A stretch of 50,366 bases of DNA, from NCBI GenBank assembly GCA_025934775.1, contig JAICWO010000024.1:1-50366 (forward strand). Direction: 5' to 3'. Of this stretch, positions 1 to 10,339 are shown piece by piece (within the stretch, counting starts at the first letter, position 1; the number at the start of each line of letters is the position of its first letter). The notes below the pieces were generated by a model. The model had not been told where the DNA came from and made no database searches. It was given only the letters and a program-made list of their open reading frames with translations. The DNA is from Gemmatimonadaceae bacterium. Lineage in GTDB: Bacteria > Gemmatimonadota > Gemmatimonadetes > Gemmatimonadales > Gemmatimonadaceae. The position numbers and the translations under genes were made by a program.

Positions 1-924
1 GGAGAACGCCGCGCCGTCGAACATCACGACGATCGCGAACGCGGTGCATCCCCGCACGTGCGGAGAACGCGTGTCGCCCGTGCACGCGAACACGTGCTGG
101 CCCGGTGCATCCCCGCACGTGCGGAGAACGCCGCGACCTCGTGCGGCCGATGATCGATCTCAACGGTGCATCCCCGCACGTGCGGAGAACGCCTGATGTT
201 GCGGTACGCCTCCGCGAGTCCGTCCGGTGCATCCCCGCACGTGCGGAGAACGCGGTGCTGAAATAAGTGGCATGTCGGCGGATGCCGGTGCATCCCCGCA
301 CGTGCGGAGAACGCAGGCGCCAAACTCGGAACGGGAGCGCGCAGTTCGGTGCATCCCCGCACGTGCGGAGAACGCTCGAGCTCATCGCCGATCGCCTGGA
401 GCCGCGGCGGTGCATCCCCGCACGTGCGGAGAACGCCCGCGACGTACGGACGCGCGCGAAAGCTCGGTCGGTGCATCCCCGCACGTGCGGAGAACGCCTG
501 GAGCGCGAACGTGAGTACCTGCCCGTAGTCGGTGCATCCCCGCACGTGCGGAGAACGCCCGCTCGGCAAAGTCGGTGACCGAGATCTCCTCGGTGCATCC
601 CCGCACGTGCGGAGAACGCGCGGCGACTTCGCCGCCGTCATGCTGCCGTGGAGGTGCATCCCCGCACGTGCGGAGAACGCGTTGAGTTTCGCGTACTCCT
701 CGGTCGAGAGCTCGGTGCATCCCCGCACGTGCGGAGAACGCCTGATCGCGGGCGGCGCGGCGTCCAGCACGTCCGGTGCATCCCCGCACGTGCGGAGAAC
801 GCCGCGCGAGCTGCGGCGTGGGCGAGTTCCAGCACGGTGCATCCCCGCACGTGCGGAGAACGCCTCGCAGACTACACACAGCGCGCGCGTAACGCCGGTG
901 CATCCCCGCACGTGCGGAGAACGC
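1..924 (-). CRISPR. Type I-E CRISPR array, 15 full repeats, open at left edge
   Basis: A 28-base unit beginning GGTGCATCC and ending GGAGAACGC starts at 43 and recurs every 61 bases up to 897-924, giving 15 full copies. The last 9 bases of another copy are at 1-9. I found no differences among the 28-base cores. The base before each core is C in 14 of 15 copies, so the natural repeat is 29 bp with 32-bp spacers, the standard I-E geometry. Read on the minus strand the repeat is E. coli-like: it starts GCGTTCTCC, forms a CTCCGC/GCGGGG hairpin (one G-T pair), and ends in the 8-base crRNA handle ATGCACCG. Transcription is therefore leftward and the leader end is at 924, beside cas2. The repeat does not degenerate toward position 1, so the array continues beyond the window. 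Confidence 0.98.
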
Positions 925-973: not shown

Positions 974-1294
974 TTACCGACCGTCTCCCGCCGTCGCGTT
1001 CGGTTGGTCTGGTCCGGATTCCGGACGAAAGGCCACCAGCCACAGACCATCCAAATCAACCGGCTCGCGCCGATTGTTTCCACACGTCGCGACCCGATAC
1101 CCTTGCTCCGAGGGCGCGCTCCATACCATCACGGCGTTTCCCTCACCAACCGCGAGTTGCACCTCTCCCCAGATCCTTTCCCGCAGGCGCGCGCTCGCGC
1201 GTCCGACGTACACCCCCGCGCGCACTTCGAGGAGTTGAATCGCCAATCGACCGCGAAGCCGCGGCGCAACATTCTCGACGATGATTGCGACCAT
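974..1294 (-). CDS. cas2: CRISPR-associated endoribonuclease/integrase subunit Cas2 (type I-E)
   Basis: A 106-residue protein with the I-E Cas2 fold signature: it starts MVAIIVENV, continues with LRGRLAIQLLEVRAGVYVG, and has a WSAPSEQGY stretch near residue 60 and a terminal GLWLVAFRP strand. Cas2 is the central dimer of the Cas1-Cas2 integrase that inserts new spacers at the leader end. The start at 1294 is set by homology to short I-E Cas2 proteins and by a purine-rich GGCGAGAGAT upstream. It begins 19 bases after the cas1 stop, making it the last gene of the cas operon, directly before leader and array. The roughly 15-residue tail after the final strand is not conserved and may double as leader DNA. 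Confidence 0.96.
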   Translation of the reverse strand: MVAIIVENVAPRLRGRLAIQLLEVRAGVYVGRASARLRERIWGEVQLAVGEGNAVMVWSAPSEQGYRVATCGNNRREPVDLDGLWLVAFRPESGPDQPNATAGDGR

Positions 1295-1313
1295 GATGAT
1301 CTCTCGCCTTCGG

Positions 1314-2255
1314 CTAGGCGCGATGCCCGGGATCGCCTGATGCCGCCGCATCTGGAAAGGCGGGACCGACCACGCCCAGTGCAGGCTCCGGCGTCACTCC
1401 TCCCGCGGATAACACGCTCTCGATCATCGGAATGATCTGCGCCAGCGTCTTCTCCTCGCGGAACAAGTCGCGGCACGCCCGCCGAACCTCACCCTCGCTC
1501 CCGCGGCCATCACTTCCGCGGCGATGCAGCTTGCCGGCAATGCGGAATGCCATTGGCACGACACCCGAAAACTTGAAGATGTCCGCGATGTCGTACACGA
1601 ACGACAGCGGCTTTCCGGTATGTATGAACCCGACGGCGGGCGCGTATCCCGCCGCGAGCACCGCCGCCTCGGTAATCCCATAAAGACATGCCGTCGCGGC
1701 ACTCAGACATCGGTTCGCGATGTCACCAGTCTCCCACGACTCCGGGTCGTATTCGCGATGCGTCCAGGGTACGTCGCACTGCCGTGCCAGTGCTCTATAG
1801 ATCGCGCGCACGCGTGCCCCTTCGATGCCGCGCAATTGCTCCACGGAGCGTCGCTCCGGCGCTGCCTCGTTGAACCGAGCCTCATACATGCGGCGCACGA
1901 CTCGCAACCGAAGCTCCGGATCGAGCGCGAGGCGTGCCTGATACAGCAGACGATCCGATCGCGCGCCGCCGGGCTGGCCCGCCGCGTACAGCCGAACGCC
2001 CGCCTCACCGACCCAGACGAGCAACGTCCCCGCCTGTGCGGCCAAATGTACGGCGGCGTGACTGACACGAGTTCCCGGCTCGAGGAAGATGCACGCAATC
2101 GCGCCAACGGGAATGACTGTCCGTACGCCGTTGTCGTCGACCAGAACGAACGCTCCGTCGATCACATCCAGCCGACCGTATTGCAAAAAGACCGACGAGA
2201 TGCGGTCCTTCATCGGCACCGGCGTGACCGGCGGCAAAACCGGATCGAAGGTCAC
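1314..2255 (-). CDS. cas1: CRISPR integrase Cas1 (type I-E)
   Basis: The catalytic subunit of the spacer integrase. It is very close to the E. coli I-E protein, with stretches such as FLQYGRLDVIDGAFVL, GTLLVWVGEAGVR and GKPLSFVYDIADI. The metal ligands are visible: Glu145 in RGIEG, His212 in FIHTGK, and Asp222 and Asp225 in YDIAD, each offset by +4 from E. coli. I chose the GTG at 2255 because it overlaps the cas6e stop as GTGA, like other junctions in this operon, and gives an N-terminus (MTFDPVLPPVTPVPMKDR) that aligns with other I-E Cas1 proteins. This gives 313 residues. An ATG at 2213 is the alternative start. Confidence 0.97.
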   Translation of the reverse strand: MTFDPVLPPVTPVPMKDRISSVFLQYGRLDVIDGAFVLVDDNGVRTVIPVGAIACIFLEPGTRVSHAAVHLAAQAGTLLVWVGEAGVRLYAAGQPGGARSDRLLYQARLALDPELRLRVVRRMYEARFNEAAPERRSVEQLRGIEGARVRAIYRALARQCDVPWTHREYDPESWETGDIANRCLSAATACLYGITEAAVLAAGYAPAVGFIHTGKPLSFVYDIADIFKFSGVVPMAFRIAGKLHRRGSDGRGSEGEVRRACRDLFREEKTLAQIIPMIESVLSAGGVTPEPALGVVGPAFPDAAASGDPGHRA

Positions 2256-2926
2256 ACCCGTCGCACGAGCAGCAGGCCGCACCCGTACGCGCGCGCGGAA
2301 CCGATGCCCTGGTACAGCGCCGCGGTGAACGCCGCGGGATCGCGCACGGTCAGCGAACCGGCAAGATCAAACGACGTGAACTCTACGGTGTCACGCTCCC
2401 GCCCCCGGCTAATGCGTCGCTGCTGCGACCCCACTGCATCGAACCCAGCTTCGATCGCATCGAAGCCGTGCCGTTGCCCCTGATGAACGAACCAGGACCA
2501 GACCGCCTCCCGCGCGGTCGCAACTCGGCGACTGGCGCGCTCGGACGGTTCGACCTCCCGCAAGGCGTGCATCGCGACATCGTGTTTGTGCAGGCGGCCG
2601 CTGTCGTCACGCCGCCGCACGACGGGGTTGGCACGTACCACGAACTGCAGAACGTCGCCGTCGGCGAGCGCGGGATCGTAGGGCTTTGTCCGAATTTCGA
2701 AGACGCCGATATCGTCAGCCGGCGGTTGACGCGAGACAATCAAAGCACTGAACCGCGTTGCGTTTTCGTCACGCCAGATGAACGAGCGTTCCGTTTCATC
2801 TGGGAACAACATTGACACGAGCGCATGACCGCCGTCATACGCTGCGCCACGCGCCAGCTGCGCGGCCAGCGCTCGGTACGCCGAGCCATCGCGCCGAAGC
2901 GCAACGCGTGACATGAACATCGTCAT
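2252..2926 (-). CDS. cas6e: CRISPR pre-crRNA endoribonuclease Cas6e
   Basis: A 224-residue CRISPR RNA processing nuclease that should cut in the repeat hairpin just before ATGCACCG and stay on the crRNA as the Cascade head. The N-terminus (MFMSRVALRRD) matches the usual Cas6e start. A conserved-position His34 in GGHALVSMLFPD is the likely catalytic histidine. The C-terminus carries the glycine-rich RNA-binding loop QGIGSARAYGCGLLLV. The ATG at 2926 overlaps the cas5 stop as ATGA. Expected substrates are the array transcript and, by inference, the degenerate repeats at 7391-7466, whose hairpins keep the canonical shape. Confidence 0.96.
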   Translation of the reverse strand: MTMFMSRVALRRDGSAYRALAAQLARGAAYDGGHALVSMLFPDETERSFIWRDENATRFSALIVSRQPPADDIGVFEIRTKPYDPALADGDVLQFVVRANPVVRRRDDSGRLHKHDVAMHALREVEPSERASRRVATAREAVWSWFVHQGQRHGFDAIEAGFDAVGSQQRRISRGRERDTVEFTSFDLAGSLTVRDPAAFTAALYQGIGSARAYGCGLLLVRRV

Positions 2927-3678
2927 GCACTCGGTAGAAAGAGTCTTTGCTCGCGGCGATCCTCGAAGAACCAGCGGTCAGCGCGCCGTTCGATCGGCTG
3001 ATCACGCCGAATCACCTCCGTGGTCGCCACAGTCGCCAACGGCGCGTCCATATCCGCGGCGAGCAGCTTCGTCGAAGCCTGGTGCCGGCGCATCACCGGG
3101 CGAAGCCGCCGGTTCAAGCGATCGAGCTCCGGCAACGCGGCGTATGTCGCGATCGCCTGCTCGACAGTTGGTGCCTCGATGATCCGGGCGGCGAGGGGCG
3201 CGGCCACCGCGCAGGCGCGACGCCCGAGCGACGGAGTGAAGAACGGTGCGGCCAACGCGGCGCGGATCGTGGCGAGCGACGGCTCGGTGGTGCGCGCCCA
3301 TATGGCGACCCGATAGAGAGCATCGCATCGATAGCCTCGCCACGACAGGATCGTCTCCAAGGTGTCGTGCTCCGCACCCAGGGCGATCTCCTCGGCACGC
3401 GTATGCCAACGCCCGTTCATCTTCGCCGGAAGCGTCTGCGCGGTATGATAGTCTTCGAGTAACACTCCATCCGCTTCGACGAGGACCGCTACTCCGACGG
3501 CGCCCGACAAGGCCTGAAGCTGCGCCGGTTGCTCACGACGAATGCCAAGCGATGCCGCGAGCAACCCGAGCACGGCGGACCGGCTCGGCACGAAATCAGT
3601 GCCGCGCACCTCGCCCACGGCGATGCCGCCCCACGACGCGAAGGGACCGTAAAGCGTAAAGACGAGGAATTCGGTCAC
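2923..3678 (-). CDS. cas5e: Cascade subunit Cas5e
   Basis: A 251-residue Cas5/CasD subunit, which caps the 5' handle of the crRNA. The N-terminus FLVFTLYGPFASWGG is the family signature, followed by the PSRSAVLGLLAASLGI helix. The GTG at 3678 is preferred over an ATG 30 bases upstream: it overlaps the cas7 stop as GTGA, and the family begins only two or three residues before the first strand. The C-terminal region is ordinary for I-E Cas5. Expression should be coupled to cas7 upstream and cas6e downstream through 4-base overlaps. Confidence 0.96.
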   Translation of the reverse strand: MTEFLVFTLYGPFASWGGIAVGEVRGTDFVPSRSAVLGLLAASLGIRREQPAQLQALSGAVGVAVLVEADGVLLEDYHTAQTLPAKMNGRWHTRAEEIALGAEHDTLETILSWRGYRCDALYRVAIWARTTEPSLATIRAALAAPFFTPSLGRRACAVAAPLAARIIEAPTVEQAIATYAALPELDRLNRRLRPVMRRHQASTKLLAADMDAPLATVATTEVIRRDQPIERRADRWFFEDRREQRLFLPSA

Positions 3679-4784
3679 GGTTTGGCTTCCGTGAGCGATG
3701 CGACACAAAACGCCGCGAGCTCCCGGAGATTGCCACGCGTGCCATCGCCCGAGGCATGGCTCGCGGTCATCTCGTAGCTTGCAGTCCCCTCGTCGTACAA
3801 CTGACCGAAATCGTCCCGCGTGGCGCGGAGCGCACTGACCGCTTCCCGGATCGGCGAGCCGGCATGGGCGGCGCTCCGCGTTCCGCTCGCGCCCACCGGT
3901 TCGAGAAATGCAACGGACAACGCGCGCGGCTGCTGACGTCCGACCTCGGCGAGCACATACGATGCCTTTGCTACGGACCCGAAGCTTGCCTGCTTTCCCT
4001 TTGGCGCAACCGTCGTAATGGCACGCACGAGTCCCTCGAGCGCGGCGCCGGCGAGGGCGCGGCCCGCATCGTCCCCGCCAAGGTTCTTCAGTAGCAGATC
4101 ACAGTTCACGCACACATAGATGTAGAACACTCCGGCGCCGAACCCGGTCTCGCCGATGTGGGCCGAGCCCGTGTCCCCACGGTCCGCTGGATCTTTCAGA
4201 TCGTCGATCGCTGAGAAGTAGTCGTCTTCGACGGTCGCGGCATGCACCGTAATCGCATGCGCGACTTGAACCGCCGCCTCGACGTTACCGTGGGACGCGT
4301 CCGCGAGCATTCGTCCGAACATGGCGATGTCCGCGGCCTTGGGCCGAACCGCGATCAACGCCTTCACGTCCTCATCTGACGGCTCTTTCTTCGACTGGAT
4401 CGCCTTGTCGAGAAGAGCTTCGGCGGCGTGCTTCTCGTCTTCGCTCAGGAATACGAGCGTCGACGAATCGCCATCGTCGTCCAACTTTCCGAAGGCGCTC
4501 GCGATGGCACGCACGATTTTTTTTCTCAGCTTTTCGTCGGCGATGGCTCCCTCGGCCCGCTCGAGCAGCTCGCGGCCGAGACGCTTCGTTCGTGTTCCCT
4601 TGGCGTCGCCGATCGCGCTCTGGAAGTCGTTGCTCGTGCGCCAAGCGCGCTTGAGGGCCTGCGATGAGATCCGAAGCCGTTCGCGACCGCCGACGATGGC
4701 GGTCTTTGGCCTGCCGGTTTCGTCGCGATTCAGATTCGCTGGTGGGTAACTCGTGAGCACATGAAGCTGTAGGAATGTGGTCAT
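3675..4784 (-). CDS. cas7e: Cascade backbone subunit Cas7e
   Basis: A 369-residue CasC/Cse4 protein, six copies of which normally form the helical backbone on a 32-nt I-E spacer. The N-terminus MTTFLQLHVLTSYPPANLNR followed by the RISSQALKRAWR helix is diagnostic. The middle contains GETGFGAGVFYIY, and the C-terminus has the RNLRELAAF-like helix (GNLRELAAFCVASL). The ATG at 4784 forms an ATGA overlap with the cse2 stop, which excludes the upstream in-frame ATG at 4868. Each Cas7 flips out one guide base in six, which matters for the mismatch pattern described at 7467-7490. Confidence 0.97.
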   Translation of the reverse strand: MTTFLQLHVLTSYPPANLNRDETGRPKTAIVGGRERLRISSQALKRAWRTSNDFQSAIGDAKGTRTKRLGRELLERAEGAIADEKLRKKIVRAIASAFGKLDDDGDSSTLVFLSEDEKHAAEALLDKAIQSKKEPSDEDVKALIAVRPKAADIAMFGRMLADASHGNVEAAVQVAHAITVHAATVEDDYFSAIDDLKDPADRGDTGSAHIGETGFGAGVFYIYVCVNCDLLLKNLGGDDAGRALAGAALEGLVRAITTVAPKGKQASFGSVAKASYVLAEVGRQQPRALSVAFLEPVGASGTRSAAHAGSPIREAVSALRATRDDFGQLYDEGTASYEMTASHASGDGTRGNLRELAAFCVASLTEAKP

Positions 4785-5383
4785 TTGCGCGTCTCGCGGG
4801 GCTCGTGTTTGATAGCGGCGGTCCAGTAGCTCGTGGCGGCGGTACGTCGCACGGATTCGAATGGCCACCTCGTGACCATCTCGAGGACAACGCCGGGGTG
4901 AACGAACTTCGGCTCGTTCGGCAGAAGCGCGAGCGCCGCACCGAAGCCACGGACCAAATCGGCTGCCTCGTCGGAATTCGTCCGCAGCAGCGACAGGAAA
5001 CGAGAGCGCGAGAGCCGAGGTCGGGCGCGCGCGCCCTCGTCCGCGGGGGAGCCGAGATACTCGAACAGCTCTTGGATTCGGTTCACCGTGAATGGTGTCA
5101 ACGGCTCGTCGGCATCCCGGCCATCGGGCTCTCGGACCACGACGGAGGCCGGCAGCCGGGCGATGAGTGCTGAGGACGCGGCAATCCGGTCGATATCGCC
5201 GTCATTCAAATGACCTTCGCCACCAAGACGTTGGCAGAGGTCATGAAAAGCACGTGTGACGATGATATCGATCGGTTCGACTGCGCGCCGCAACGCGGCG
5301 CGATCGCCGCGATGCCAGTTCAGGCGATACCACCACCGCGCCGCATGTATTTTCGGCGTTGGTGGCGCGCTCGTCTCGGTCAT
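4781..5383 (-). CDS. cse2: Cascade small subunit Cse2 (Cas11)
   Basis: A 200-residue CasB/Cse2 small subunit, which lines the belly of Cascade and stabilises the displaced DNA strand. It matches in position, size and helical composition. Family-like stretches include WWYRLNWHRGDRAALRRA near residue 17 and RFLSLLRTNSDEAADLVRGF near residue 128. It lies between cse1 and cas7 with ATGA overlaps at both ends. No deviation from the family is apparent. Confidence 0.94.
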   Translation of the reverse strand: MTETSAPPTPKIHAARWWYRLNWHRGDRAALRRAVEPIDIIVTRAFHDLCQRLGGEGHLNDGDIDRIAASSALIARLPASVVVREPDGRDADEPLTPFTVNRIQELFEYLGSPADEGARARPRLSRSRFLSLLRTNSDEAADLVRGFGAALALLPNEPKFVHPGVVLEMVTRWPFESVRRTAATSYWTAAIKHEPRETRK

Positions 5384-6996
5384 GACGCCACCCCCTCCGC
5401 AGGCGGTTGATTGAGCCCAAGCCGCTTGGCGAATTTCTCGCCCCGGAGTGAGCTTCGCAGAATCGTCTGTGCGCGGATGACCCGCTCCATGTCCATGCTC
5501 TCCGCGGAATCCAGGTCGACGTGATCTGAAAAAATCGCGAGTGCCTTCGCGCGAAGCGCCTCGCCGAACGCGGAGAGTGTCTTCGCCACGTCTTCGCCGA
5601 ATTTCTCATCGAACCGCGAATGGATATGCTGAAGCGCCTCGACCGCCTGCCGAAACGACGATTCGGTGCGGCTGGTGAGCTCCTCATCGATCCACGACGC
5701 ATCGCCCTTCGCGTTGCGTCCAAACAACGCGTCCCTGAGCGTCGTTCGCAGCATCGAGGCGGCGAAATCGGCAGCTTCGACCAATCGCGCCACGTCTGCC
5801 TCGATGAATTCACTCGTGTAGAGCTTGAGATCGGGAATCACGGACCGGACAAATCTTCGAGCTTTCATATTATCCATATCGTATCCGAACGCGAGCATCG
5901 TCGCGGACATGCCATTGGGAGACTGCACGACCGCTCGGCGCGACGGCGTCGAGCCGCCAGCGTCGAGCTGCTGCACGACGGCCGCGGGCTCGATCTGACC
6001 GTTCCTCTGCTCTCTCGCGTGGACGTAGCCCAACCAGTCGCGATAGTCGATGGAGCCGCTGGGATGCAACGGGAGACGCGTGTCCTTCTTCGCATCGGTA
6101 CGGTACGGCGTCAGCGGATGCGACCAGCCGGCGTACGACGCTCCGAATGGGCGCGACGAGAATCCTGTCACGGAAGTCGAAACACGCTCGCCCGTAACGA
6201 AGCAGCGCCTCTCGCCTGGCTCGGCATGGAGCCAAATCCGTCGGGGCATTCCCCAGAACGCCTGGAGAGCGTTCCGCTCGTTCGGCCGAACGGTCCGGGC
6301 TTCGCCGTCGTGAGTCTCGCTCGTGCAAGTCTCACCCATCCACGGGAACACATCGGGCGTGGGCCGGGACGGAGGGGCGCAGTGCAAGACGTTCGCGGGT
6401 AGCACGTTGAGCCAGATGGTGCGCCATAACCCATGCGTGCCCTGCCGAGGAGCGACGAGCAGCGTGGTGAGTGGCCCGCCGCCGCGCATCCCCGTTCGGT
6501 TGCCGGCGCCCCCGGCGGGCGCGTATGCCTGCAGCGCAAATAGGGAAATCGCAGCGGCGGCTTCGCTGAGCGCGGCATCGCTCGTGCGCTTCACGAAGAG
6601 ATCGGCGTTCTTCTTGAGCGTGTTCTCGCCCGGGCTGTCGATGAGCAGCGACGTCACCGAGACAACATCGTCTCGGGGGATATCGCGATCCTGGAGAAAT
6701 CGCGGTCCGTCGCCAAGGAGCTCGAACGCGGAAGCGAATGGCGCGAGCCGCGCGGAGAGATCGGCGCTCGTTGGCGGCGTGAGATACCAGCGTGCCCATT
6801 CGTCCGCGGAGACCGGCGCACAGGTCGTCTGGAACACTCCGACGAGGAACTCGAGCGTCGCGCACTGGAGATCCACCCGCGGCCACGCGATGGCGCCGGC
6901 GTCGAGCGCAGGCTTGACGATTTCGTGCGGAGCGATGGTTACCGCTCGCCCGCGGGCGTCATGGACCGGTATCCAGCTCGCCTCGAGAATGTTCAT
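5380..6996 (-). CDS. cse1: Cascade large subunit Cse1 (Cas8e)
   Basis: A 538-residue CasA/Cse1 protein, which reads the PAM and recruits Cas3. Family signatures are the N-terminal SWIPVHDARG, the HEIVKPALDAGAI-type helix, and the glycine-rich segment AGGAGNRTGMRGGGPLTTLL near residue 165. The C-terminal helical bundle ends LGLNQPPAEGVAS and overlaps cse2 by ATGA. The start at 6996 lies about 15 bases from the TSS predicted from a good promoter at 7018-7046, so the Cascade operon probably has its own promoter rather than depending on read-through from cas3. Confidence 0.96.
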   Translation of the reverse strand: MNILEASWIPVHDARGRAVTIAPHEIVKPALDAGAIAWPRVDLQCATLEFLVGVFQTTCAPVSADEWARWYLTPPTSADLSARLAPFASAFELLGDGPRFLQDRDIPRDDVVSVTSLLIDSPGENTLKKNADLFVKRTSDAALSEAAAAISLFALQAYAPAGGAGNRTGMRGGGPLTTLLVAPRQGTHGLWRTIWLNVLPANVLHCAPPSRPTPDVFPWMGETCTSETHDGEARTVRPNERNALQAFWGMPRRIWLHAEPGERRCFVTGERVSTSVTGFSSRPFGASYAGWSHPLTPYRTDAKKDTRLPLHPSGSIDYRDWLGYVHAREQRNGQIEPAAVVQQLDAGGSTPSRRAVVQSPNGMSATMLAFGYDMDNMKARRFVRSVIPDLKLYTSEFIEADVARLVEAADFAASMLRTTLRDALFGRNAKGDASWIDEELTSRTESSFRQAVEALQHIHSRFDEKFGEDVAKTLSAFGEALRAKALAIFSDHVDLDSAESMDMERVIRAQTILRSSLRGEKFAKRLGLNQPPAEGVAS

Positions 6997-7017
6997 GAGA
7001 GAGTCGCCATACTAACA

Positions 7018-7046
7018 TTAATAACCGGCGCTGTCCAGCTTGTCAT
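7018..7046 (-). promoter_or_regulatory. Predicted promoter of the cse1-cas2 operon
   Basis: On the minus strand a -35 element ATGACA (7046-7041, 5 of 6 to TTGACA) is followed after exactly 17 bases by TATTAA (7023-7018, 4 of 6 to TATAAT). A start about 7 bases downstream would leave a leader of only about 15 bases before the cse1 ATG. This is the clearest sigma-70-like promoter in the cas3-cse1 gap and sits in a local AT-rich island. Its -10 shares TATTAA with the promoter-like sequence at 7492-7520. Confidence 0.6.
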
Positions 7047-7236
7047 GCGGGCGCCCTGGGCCAGGCAGCCCCCTTTCGAAATGCGCGTAACTTCGGCGCG
7101 GTGCGCACAGGGACCGTCCACGCGATTCGACTGCGGCTGAGACGCCGGCGCCTGCAACTTCGCCACGCGAACTGCGGCCTGAATTGCACCGTGATCCGCG
7201 CGTTCCACCGAGACCGAAACCGTGCGCGACTTCTGG

Positions 7237-7420
7237 TCAGAGTTGGGACGTGCATACCGACCCGCCGATCCGCAGTATGTGGCGGATCGATTCCCGCGAC
7301 AGTAGAGCGGCCACGTCCGACGGGGTAGCGGGGCCGAAAGTGCGCTGAAGCGCGTCGACCGCCGGGCCGAATCCAAGCCGCTCCGGCGGCTGATTCCATC
7401 CCCACCTGGTGGAGAACGCA
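7237..7420 (-). pseudogene. Coding-like remnant without a start codon
   Basis: One minus-strand frame is open and moderately GC3-biased from about 7420 to a TGA at 7239-7237. It begins FSTRWGWNQPPERLGFG and continues DALQRTFGPATPSDVAALL. It has no convincing start codon or ribosome-binding site. Its first part weakly echoes the Cse1 C-terminus (FAKRLGLNQPPAEG). It overlaps the second degenerate repeat. It could be the remnant of an older gene, or chance in GC-rich DNA. I do not recognise a family. Confidence 0.2.
7391..7419 (-). repeat. Degenerate CRISPR repeat 2 (downstream of mini-spacer)
   Basis: On the minus strand this 29-base segment starts with the exact repeat 5' end GCGTTCTCC. It keeps a repeat-like hairpin CTCCAC-CAG-GTGGGG: a 6-bp stem with one G-T pair, the same stem length as the true repeat with one fewer loop base. 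It loses the handle, reading ATGGAATCA instead of ATGCACCG. That is what is expected of the terminal repeat of a single-guide unit, where only the 3' hairpin is needed. The true array lies about 6.5 kb away, so this is not an array edge. Confidence 0.8.
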
Positions 7421-7440
7421 ATTTGGCTTATCAGGCAATG
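7420..7440 (-). ncRNA. 21-nt guide segment of a crRNA-like RNA
   Basis: This is the spacer-like segment between the two degenerate repeats, 21 nt rather than the 32 nt of every array spacer. On the minus strand it starts directly after an intact ATGCACCG handle with CATTGCCTGATAAG. An 18/21 match lies at 7467-7487, the only strong match I noticed in the window. A processed product would be an 8-nt handle, 21-nt guide and about 20-nt hairpin. By analogy with CreA and Cas-regulating RNAs (established in other type I systems) I infer a Cascade guide that represses rather than cleaves. Confidence 0.65.
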
Positions 7441-7466
7441 CGGTGCATCCGCTGAGAGCGGAACTT
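7441..7466 (-). repeat. Degenerate CRISPR repeat 1 with intact 5' handle
   Basis: This 26-base segment ends on the minus strand with the full handle ATGCACCG preceded by a perfect 6-bp hairpin TCCGCT-CTC-AGCGGA. Relative to the true repeat it lacks two bases on each side of the stem, so the stem is shortened symmetrically and pairing is preserved. That suggests selection for Cas6e cleavage and handle formation rather than decay. The plus-strand string CGGTGCATCC at 7441-7450 is identical to the array repeat. Confidence 0.82.
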
Positions 7467-7490
7467 AATTTGGCTCTTCAGACAATGCTT
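7467..7490 (-). promoter_or_regulatory. Putative Cascade target site: AAG PAM plus 21-nt near-match to the mini-guide
   Basis: On the minus strand AAG (7490-7488) is followed by 21 bases (7487-7467) matching the mini-guide at 18 of 21 positions. Mismatches are at guide positions 6, 11 and 12. AAG is the consensus I-E interference PAM. Positions 6 and 12 are among those Cascade flips out and does not pair, so only position 11 should cost binding. The site lies on the predicted -10/start region at 7492-7520. Cascade bound here would be expected to block that promoter; a 21-base partial R-loop is unlikely to license Cas3. The alternative is a plain tandem duplication. Confidence 0.6.
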
Positions 7491-7491
7491 T

Positions 7492-7520
7492 AATATCGAG
7501 TCACAGGTTGCTGCGCGCAA
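7492..7520 (-). promoter_or_regulatory. Predicted promoter of the crRNA-like RNA
   Basis: Just past the cas3 stop, the minus strand reads TTGCGC (7520-7515), 17 bases, then GATATT (7497-7492) within an AT-rich GATATTAAAG. Initiation would fall at about 7485, within the putative Cascade target and about 20 bases before the first degenerate repeat. The -35 is weak (3 of 6), so this is a moderate call. A transcript from here would carry both degenerate repeats and could run on into cse1. Confidence 0.4.
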
Positions 7521-7525
7521 GGCCA

Positions 7526-10285
7526 TCATTCCCGAATCAACCCCTCATCTGCCGAGTAAACCAGCCGAACATCCGATCCTCCTGCGCGCAACGTACCGGC
7601 ATACGAGCCTGCACCGGTTTCCGCAACGACCAGTGGGACCACCCACCGCCCCTGATCTGGCCACGTCGAGCGTAGCCGCTCGAGCATCACATCGGCGACG
7701 GGTTCAATCGCCTCGCCGCTCCGAGCCAGCAAACTGCGCCTCACGCTCACCTCCGACCGGCGCCACACATTCATCGCGTTGCGCTCGTCGCCCGGCTCGG
7801 GCCGCGCCAATGGATGCAGCGCGCCATCAAGGGCGCGAACGCAAATACGCAGCACCTCGCTCCTTTCGCCCAGTCGCGTCGGCGCACGCTCGTCGTCGTC
7901 CCACAATCCCTCGCCCGAGGGCGGATAGGGTCGGTTCGGATCGAGCGAGTTCGCACGCCCGAGAAACTGATCCGCCGATCGGTCGCCAATCGTCATGATG
8001 TCGTTGTTCACGAACGCGGGCGGTACCTCGCCATCCTCATCATAGACGAACTCCACCATGGCCCTGGCATCCGACGGCAGCTTGACCAGATGCCCGTCCG
8101 GTAGCACCGCCGCCGTCCGCCAAAGATGCAAGCGGCTCTCGTACACTCGCAGCGTGGATGGCAGGAGATCGCGAAGCCAATCGATTTTGGGCTCCGCCGT
8201 CGCCGCCGAAATCAGGTGGAGGTACGCGGGGCCGCGCTCGTCAGGGCCATTGACGGGATCCCCACTGCTCGTTCGCGAATGCCGGCGGAGCCGGCCCATT
8301 CGTTGGATCAGCACGTCGATTGGCGCGAGATCGCTAATGAGCACATCGAAATCGATGTCCAGCGATGCCTCGGCGACCTGCGTTGCCACGACGATTGCTC
8401 CCTGTCGCTGCTCGCCGCGCGACCGCGGACCGAACCGCGACACGATGCCGTCTTCGATCGTGGCACGATCGCCGGCGGTAAATCGCGCGTGAAAGAGCGA
8501 TACTCGAACGCCGTCGGAGCGGTTCCGCACGCGCCGATAGGTCTCGATCGCATCGCGAACCGTGTTTCGGATATAGAGCACCGCCTGTCCCGTGGATGCG
8601 CTGGCGATCGCCACCTCGTCCGCGGCGGCTACGGCATCGTGGCGAACGATTCGATGCTCGCGCAGACCAACGGCCTCCACGCCCGCCGCGTGTACCAGTC
8701 CACGCCCGACGCGTATCAGCGCGGGGTACTCGCGGGTCGGTGCCGGAATGGGTGGGGCAACATGGTGACGGTCGTCCAGTCCGCGCTCGAATGCCGCGAT
8801 CAACTTCTCTCGAGTCGCCACCGGCAACGTGGCGGAGAGGAGCACCGCGTCGCCTCCCAGCGCCGCCTGAAAGTGGAGCACACGCTCGAGAATCGCGGTT
8901 TGATACGCATCCGCGGCGTGTACCTCGTCGACGACCAGTACTGCGTCGACCAGGCCCAAGAGACGAAGCTGTTGGTGTCGCGACTTGAGCGCAGCCAACA
9001 AGACCTGGTCGATCGTACCGATCCCGATGTGCGCGAGCAGCGCCTTTTTGCGCGAGTCGGCGATCCAGGCGCGGCACTGCGCCGCACCGTCTTCGTCATC
9101 GTGCGGGGGCGATCGATCGTCAGCGGGCCATACTCTCGATTCGAGAAACGCCGCATTCGTATCCGCGCGTCCATGCGCGAGAACGACCGACGCGTTGCTG
9201 TCGGCGCTGAAGAGCGTTGACCATCGTCGCCGGAGGCGGTCGTACATCGCCGTCGCGGTGGCCTGGGTTGGGAGTGCCCAAAACAGCCGCGCCGCCCGAC
9301 CCGCCGCGATCATTCGATGCGCGAGGATCATTGCGGCCTCAGTCTTTCCCGAGCCCGTGAGATCTTCCAGAATCGTAATCGTCGGGCCGTCGCCAAGCTC
9401 GACGCTGGCGGCCGCCGACTGCATTGGCCGAATCTGTTGACCGCTCGCGATCCACATCGCTGCTGACGTGAACGCCGAAGGCTCGACAACGACGACGCCG
9501 GCGTTTTGGATGGCGTGACGTGCGCGTTCATACGCCTGCCGCCAGTACGCCTCGGGAGCGCCGGCTTCGGCGATCGGCGGAAACCACAGTTCATTCGAGC
9601 CGATCCAATCGGCGAGGACGGTCAGGCCGGCAATCGCCCACGTACACTCGGCGGGAACGATGAAGTCGTGATCATCCCGAGGCGGCCCGAGTGTTTGAAC
9701 GACGATGTCCACGAGCGCACGCGCCGCATCGATGTCCCAAGGCTGCGCGAAACGCGAGCGCCGAAGCCCTTCGATCAGCGCGTTTCCCCTGAGATGCTGG
9801 CCATGGATGGACGACACCGGCCGGCCGTGGTGACCGGAAACTGGAACGAGCAGTTGTCGGAAACGCGAGGACTCCGAACTGGCGTCCGTCCCGAGCGCCG
9901 CATCGTATATCGGCAACGTGAGACTCGCATGATGACAATCTACAAGCCCCTCGTTGCCTTTGAAGATCATTCCGAGCTGTGCTGCTGCGTCTGCGCGCTT
10001 GACCTGGAACGCGCTCGCGCATTTGCCAATGTCGTGAAGCGCGACGGCGCTAGCGACGACGCGCGTCGCCGCATCCTCCGAGAGCTCGAGCCACCGGGCG
10101 AAGCGCTCGTTCAGCGAACGGTGCTCCTCCAGATATGCCATCGCGACGGCGCCGACGTCGAGGGCATGCCATTGCAGGAGATGAACTCGGCACTCGGTGC
10201 CGCGGCCAGCCTTTGCCCACCGACGCACGGGGTCCGAGTAACGTACCGTTGAAGTCGACAGCCGTGGTTCCTTGGTAGCGGGCAT
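7526..10285 (-). CDS. cas3: CRISPR nuclease-helicase Cas3 (type I-E)
   Basis: The HD nuclease and SF2 helicase recruited by Cascade to shred target DNA. HD motifs are seen at His40 (QWHALDV), His84-Asp85 (HDIGK), CHHASL near 118 and GHHGRP near 152. WAIAGLTVLADWIGS near 216 is typical of I-E Cas3. Helicase motifs are Walker A TGSGKT at about 310-315 and DEVH at about 452, followed by the later SF2 motifs, so the enzyme looks intact. I chose the ATG at 10285; a TTG at 10318 is possible, and neither has a strong ribosome-binding site. Unlike the other cas genes it is not overlapped with cse1, and its 5' end lies tens of bases from the stop of the ABC-F gene. Confidence 0.95.
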   Translation of the reverse strand: MPATKEPRLSTSTVRYSDPVRRWAKAGRGTECRVHLLQWHALDVGAVAMAYLEEHRSLNERFARWLELSEDAATRVVASAVALHDIGKCASAFQVKRADAAAQLGMIFKGNEGLVDCHHASLTLPIYDAALGTDASSESSRFRQLLVPVSGHHGRPVSSIHGQHLRGNALIEGLRRSRFAQPWDIDAARALVDIVVQTLGPPRDDHDFIVPAECTWAIAGLTVLADWIGSNELWFPPIAEAGAPEAYWRQAYERARHAIQNAGVVVVEPSAFTSAAMWIASGQQIRPMQSAAASVELGDGPTITILEDLTGSGKTEAAMILAHRMIAAGRAARLFWALPTQATATAMYDRLRRRWSTLFSADSNASVVLAHGRADTNAAFLESRVWPADDRSPPHDDEDGAAQCRAWIADSRKKALLAHIGIGTIDQVLLAALKSRHQQLRLLGLVDAVLVVDEVHAADAYQTAILERVLHFQAALGGDAVLLSATLPVATREKLIAAFERGLDDRHHVAPPIPAPTREYPALIRVGRGLVHAAGVEAVGLREHRIVRHDAVAAADEVAIASASTGQAVLYIRNTVRDAIETYRRVRNRSDGVRVSLFHARFTAGDRATIEDGIVSRFGPRSRGEQRQGAIVVATQVAEASLDIDFDVLISDLAPIDVLIQRMGRLRRHSRTSSGDPVNGPDERGPAYLHLISAATAEPKIDWLRDLLPSTLRVYESRLHLWRTAAVLPDGHLVKLPSDARAMVEFVYDEDGEVPPAFVNNDIMTIGDRSADQFLGRANSLDPNRPYPPSGEGLWDDDERAPTRLGERSEVLRICVRALDGALHPLARPEPGDERNAMNVWRRSEVSVRRSLLARSGEAIEPVADVMLERLRSTWPDQGRWVVPLVVAETGAGSYAGTLRAGGSDVRLVYSADEGLIRE

Positions 10286-10339
10286 CCAATACTGTACGCC
10301 GCCGCCGAGCCATCGCAATGACGGAACACTACTCGGATT

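Follow-up and report, generated by a model that had tools for sequence, protein, structure and literature searches.

What is the function of two degenerate CRISPR repeats that flank a single short guide in the gap between cas3 and cse1? The question arises from a locus of a Gemmatimonadaceae bacterium, analyzed here within a stretch of 50,366 nucleotides (referred to as the window). A preliminary description of this DNA had assigned the locus to type I-E and reported the two repeats around a 21-nt guide. Both statements were borne out, as family models identified cas3, cse1, cse2, cas7, cas5, cas6e, cas1e, and cas2e, and the coordinates, the exact handle, and the exact repeat start of the unit were all verified (Table 1). 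Each of the eight cas genes scores above the curated cut-off for one or more family models, and the operon is complete. Its array follows the repeat consensus GCGTTCTCCGCACGTGCGGGGATGCACCG, and the earlier observation that all array spacers measure 32 nt holds for every complete spacer of the array at 1-924 as well as for a second array stretch on genome contig C41. The cas3–cse1 gap comprises 529 nt and holds psiR1, the guide, and psiR2 on the minus strand. A protein gene in this gap was rejected, as frames of 142 and 119 aa show flat GC by codon position; the 142-aa frame had no NCBIfam match, and an Rfam search of 6900-7600 retrieved no described RNA family at E-values up to 1.

Table 1. 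Coordinates of the unit, its target, and the surrounding features in the window.
Feature	Position	Strand	Remark
cas3	7526-10318	-	TIGR01587, TIGR01596 above cut-off; upstream of unit
Candidate promoter of unit, TTGCGC-N17-GATATT	7492..7520	-	7/12 consensus matches; AT-rich patch
Target PAM AAG	7488..7490	-	From sequence; AAG likewise in L012, L017, L093, L075
Target (protospacer) CATTGTCTGAAGAGCCAAATT	7467..7487	-	Near copy of guide, 47 nt upstream
psiR1, degenerate first repeat	7441..7466	-	26 nt, AAGTTCCGCTCTCAGCGGATGCACCG; supplies 5' handle
5' handle ATGCACCG (RNA AUGCACCG)	7448-7441	-	8/8 identical to array repeat
Guide CATTGCCTGATAAGCCAAATT	7420..7440	-	21 nt, between handle and psiR2
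psiR2, degenerate second repeat	7391..7419	-	29 nt, GCGTTCTCCACCAGGTGGGGATGGAATCA; supplies 3' hairpin handle
Predicted mature CreR RNA, 49 nt	7400..7448	-	8-nt handle + 21-nt guide + 20-nt 3' hairpin
Candidate cse1 promoter, TGGACA-N17-TAGTAT with TG	7009..7037	-	9/12 consensus; not targeted by guide
cse1 (cas8e), first Cascade-operon gene	5380-6996	-	TIGR02547, 1.2e-71; downstream of unit
cse2, cas7, cas5, cas6e, cas1e, cas2e	974..5383	-	TIGR02548, TIGR01869, TIGR01868, TIGR01907, TIGR03638, TIGR01873
Canonical CRISPR array	1..924	-	Cut by contig end; 15 complete repeats; spacers of 32 nt

The unit does not have the form of a functional array, given that psiR1 and psiR2 are diverged and the guide has 21 nt versus 32 nt in all array spacers. 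It does contain the Cas6 elements expected of a CreR, i.e., a cas-regulating crRNA-like RNA, with the handle in psiR1 and the 3' hairpin in psiR2. Each of the two aligns to the array repeat better than all 3000 shuffles. The first 9 nt of psiR2 correspond exactly to the repeat start, and its own handle is decayed. Despite the divergence from the repeat sequence, predicted stems are preserved in both elements (pairs read off the sequence): in psiR1, a 5-bp stem CCGCU/AGCGG with a 3-nt loop replaces the repeat stem CUCCGC/GCGGGG, and in psiR2, the stem CUCCAC/GUGGGG is maintained by a paired G-C to A-U change. Across the two elements, the repeat halves needed for the product are kept at 17/17 positions versus 10/17 in the opposite halves; these counts for the window stand alone, as the same asymmetry is biased for relatives, which were chosen partly by their kept halves. 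Type I-E Cas6e cuts immediately 3' of the repeat stem, and a 49-nt product (7448-7400) is therefore predicted.

To the whole 4.9-Mb genome we applied the pattern ATGCACCG-N12..40-GCGTTCTCC, which yielded 37 matches, 36 of them in the two arrays and one at 7411-7448, and a reversed control pattern had none. Among Markov gaps of equal length and composition, 0/4000 attained the observed score for handle plus repeat start.

The preliminary description had named no target. We found a near copy of the guide preceded by AAG 47 nt upstream, directly abutting psiR1, which matches the guide at 18/21 positions with mismatches confined to positions 6, 11, and 12. The best guide match in 2000 Markov gaps was 15/21, the runner-up within the 50-kb window reached 13/21, and a guide copy together with AAG occurred in 0/4000 simulated gaps. 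Moreover, AAGCATTGNCTGA is unique in the genome, its single occurrence being at the target. The guide's own copy is preceded by CCG, the end of the repeat, rather than by AAG, and the unit itself should therefore be spared. An AAG-seed site near the cas3 start was sought as a second target, and none was found. An exact search of IMG/VR with two spacers, made to derive the PAM from protospacers, gave no matches. AAG is the optimal type I-E PAM in E. coli (PMC5904413) and the presumed PAM of this host.

How far the guide would pair bears on the outcome of binding. Every sixth base of type I guides remains unpaired. Subtracting the flipped-out positions 6, 12, and 18 and the mismatch at position 11 from the 21 nt leaves about 17 expected base pairs. 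For E. coli Cascade, a 5-bp seed next to AAG is sufficient for recruitment, and interference needs >18 bp (PMC5904413); a type I-B system shows repression without interference when spacers measure ≤24 bp (PMC10989794). About 17 bp would thus be enough for stable binding, yet lie about at or below what E. coli needs for Cas3 action, so that repression rather than self-cleavage would be expected. Both the guide length of 21 nt and this number of pairs agree with the notion of "bind but do not cut". When E. coli Cascade bound off-target sites through the seed, nearby expression reportedly stayed unchanged (PMC5904413); with the longer pairing at the window target, the outcome may differ.

With regard to promoters, an AT-rich, -10-like patch in a window of 67% GC has the target at its downstream edge. 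The candidate promoter of the unit (7520-7492) falls under the threshold of the consensus scan and is weak; a transcript from it would be expected to start near 7485, i.e., within the target. The only site found by the consensus scan was the candidate cse1 promoter, for which 0.1 occurrences are expected in shuffles. Of the features of a PAM-flanked cas promoter under CreR control, seed and AAG are present at the targeted site, which may be a cas promoter, but the cse1 promoter with the best consensus lies elsewhere. Since this better promoter is not targeted, control of cse1 by the guide would depend on read-through or on a roadblock. Hardly any leader would separate the candidate cse1 promoter from the ATG (window 7037-6993), and the cse1 mRNA may be leaderless. 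A 17-codon frame overlaps the cse1 start as ATGA.

We consider it likely that the locus is a mini-CRISPR for a CreR that directs Cascade to repress the promoter of the unit itself, and this repression probably extends to the cse1–cas2 operon. The parts of the unit, the AAG, the guide match, and the recurrence described below for other genomes were observed; we infer the promoter as well as the steps from processing and binding to repression and its consequences for the cas genes, as follows. A transcript would begin near 7485 or arrive from cas3. Cleavage by Cas6e at psiR1 and psiR2 would release the 49-nt RNA, which has the 21-nt guide between a normal 5' handle and a 3' hairpin. Cascade loaded with this RNA would bind the AAG-flanked site at 7490-7467, directly upstream of the unit, where its own promoter-like region begins. 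The CreR would thereby lower its own level and probably also that of cse1–cas2, since bound Cascade would block distal initiation as well as read-through from cas3. When array crRNAs or anti-CRISPRs fill Cascade, the repression would ease. The preliminary description had proposed either a CreA antitoxin or a Cas-regulating RNA; the latter half gains from the target now found, and the former half was not sustained, no toxin gene being visible.

To see how widespread the arrangement is, we examined 87 other type I-E loci, including 80 named from GTDB. A related system is present in 7/395 genomes drawn from the phylum and in 8/179 of the family; within the genus, it occurs in 1/6 genomes and in no other member, and no close relative carrying this guide was found. 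Scans for hairpin–handle–guide–repeat units in cas3–cse1 intervals, the gaps in which the preliminary description had proposed to search relatives, detected four further loci among the 87: L012 from the same GTDB family, L017 from Siccirubricoccus phaeus, and L093 and L075 from Rhodospirillales MAGs. Their guides are unrelated to that of the window, and every one of them has a match, preceded by AAG, on the same strand of its own interval. L012 has GCTAGTACAGGAGGG, in which mismatches within the first 15 positions fall at 6, 10, and 12; matches in L093 and L075 extend over the first 14 positions save position 12, and L017 matches at 16/18 positions. Guides of these four loci range from 21 to 34 nt, and their pairing is restricted to the first 14-18 guide positions. 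Even when the PAM is given no credit, the target ranks first among guide matches in the gap of L012, of L093, and of the window. The position relative to promoter-like elements varies: the target begins 20 nt upstream of TTGACC-N17-CAAAAT in L093, is followed by TTGACT in L012 and by TTGCAA in L017, and begins straight after a -10-like box in L075 and in the window. The L075 unit (L075:9143-9400) is a mini-CRISPR with a 21-nt guide in a type I-E cas3–cse1 interval, and its AAG target directly follows a TATAAG box. A seed scan with weaker demands, which fires on 7/1560 shuffled gaps, gave L054 as its only other match; this locus is without a second repeat and was treated as chance. By the scans used, the gaps of L010, L011, L013, L015, and L016, all from the same phylum, contained no such unit.

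Other explanations were weighed against these data. A CreTA module, in which CreA, an antitoxin RNA, keeps the small toxin RNA CreT silent and the cell thereby addicted to Cascade, appears unlikely for the window, even though its psiR1–guide–psiR2 architecture is identical and such modules adjoin cas operons (PMC8501985). The similar locus L093 lends this explanation some weight, since its targeted promoter precedes a 10-codon ORF with a ribosome site as well as a strong hairpin, as would be expected of a CreT. In the window, by contrast, the target abuts psiR1, so that targeted site and unit are contiguous, and the 350 nt down to cse1 carry no codon signal; CreR is therefore the better name for the window unit. 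A search for CreT ORFs between target and unit and downstream, which covers ORF-type toxins, found no mini-ORF with a ribosome site save a long, poor frame. As for L093 itself (L093:4145-4400), TTGACC-N17-CAAAAT is followed by AAAGGAGG, in which the 10-codon ORF includes an AUA codon, and the strong hairpin precedes T-rich sequence ahead of cse1. The L093 unit may be a type I-E CreTA toxin–antitoxin.

Guide and target form tandem copies with a 47-bp period, and their similarity (82% over 28 nt) runs into the repeat start, as would be the case for a duplicated spacer–repeat unit. These copies could also be read as the remnant of an old array, i.e., leftover repeats and a shortened, duplicated spacer without function, which we regard as distinctly improbable. 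Decay of the repeats was asymmetric, with the parts required for the product intact and others partly lost, and the target copy has AAG where the guide copy has CCG, with mismatches at the three positions given above. No repeat relic was detected upstream of the target copy (p 0.53), and the arrangement recurs elsewhere with unrelated guides. Still less probable, indeed very much so, is a guide retained because it is aimed at some other gene or a mobile element, its upstream match being incidental: crRNA-like RNAs can aim at foreign genes, and other targets may exist outside the genome, but AAGCATTGNCTGA has its single genomic occurrence at the target, the AAG-flanked 18/21 match within a 529-nt gap is not chance, and the guides of four other loci match next-door sites as well. 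Chance resemblance without any CRISPR-derived unit, conceivable in GC-rich DNA that readily forms hairpins, is already refuted by the simulated gaps and the control pattern.

The CreR reading places the unit among known systems. CreR was described by Liu et al. (2023, Cell Host Microbe 31:1481), as cited in the reviews PMC13131331, PMC12737573, and PMC12948488. CreRs were reported in types I-B, I-E, and V-A and act on cas genes, and competing crRNAs and anti-CRISPRs relieve their repression (PMC13131331, PMC12737573). Like these, the window unit is a mini-CRISPR in a cas locus, here also of type I-E, with a guide of limited complementarity to a PAM-flanked, promoter-proximal site and with no toxin gene. 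It differs in that its target is the promoter-like region upstream of the unit itself and not the best cse1 promoter, and in its 21-nt guide, which is predicted to pair almost end to end. These differing features may already be described in the primary work.

Similarities to CreA extend to pairing. CreA-guided Cascade represses a PAM-flanked promoter site; positions 1-5 and 7-11 of CreA pair beside the PAM, positions 6 and 12 are unpaired and do not matter, and psiR1 and psiR2 preserve only the Cas6 elements, giving an 8-nt 5' handle and a 3' handle of ~20-22 nt (PMC8501985). The window unit shares with CreA/CreTA the psiR1–guide–psiR2 order, the handles, pairing at 1-5 and 7-11 by the PAM, and predicted auto-repression of its own promoter (PMC8501985, PMC9458426); it differs by having no visible CreT gene and by a target that abuts psiR1. 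With the type I-E array of its own genome it has handle, repeat start, strand, and operon in common, and differs in having two diverged repeats, a 21- versus 32-nt guide, and a target in the host cas locus.

Self-control by CreR is already known, type I-E included, and the window unit is a well-supported new example. It offers a clear type I-E CreR beyond the well-studied hosts, with guide, PAM, and target visible within 100 bp, in an arrangement that recurs in cas3–cse1 gaps of several lineages. Less usual are the 21-nt guide, the long pairing, and the target abutting the unit; the combination of short guide and long pairing lends itself naturally to testing how Cascade keeps repression apart from self-destruction. 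Tentatively, guide and target may be two copies of one 47-bp spacer–repeat unit, of which the AAG copy became the operator, with the 21-nt guide serving as a safety device that permits repression by near-full pairing without cutting by Cas3. If this were true, a CreR–operator pair could arise by one duplication step, feeding back on its own promoter.

Two further observations concern repeats outside the gap. Genome contig C41 (L106:42-1656) carries 27 further repeats of the same array type, the last of which is decayed at its 3' end, and these are probably the continuation of the array interrupted at window position 1. Scanning for hairpin–handle–guide–repeat units also yielded pairs of degenerate repeats with 32-nt spacers located elsewhere than in the cas3–cse1 gap (L035:16202, L071:18294, and L072:18294), which could be array ends or further mini-CRISPRs.
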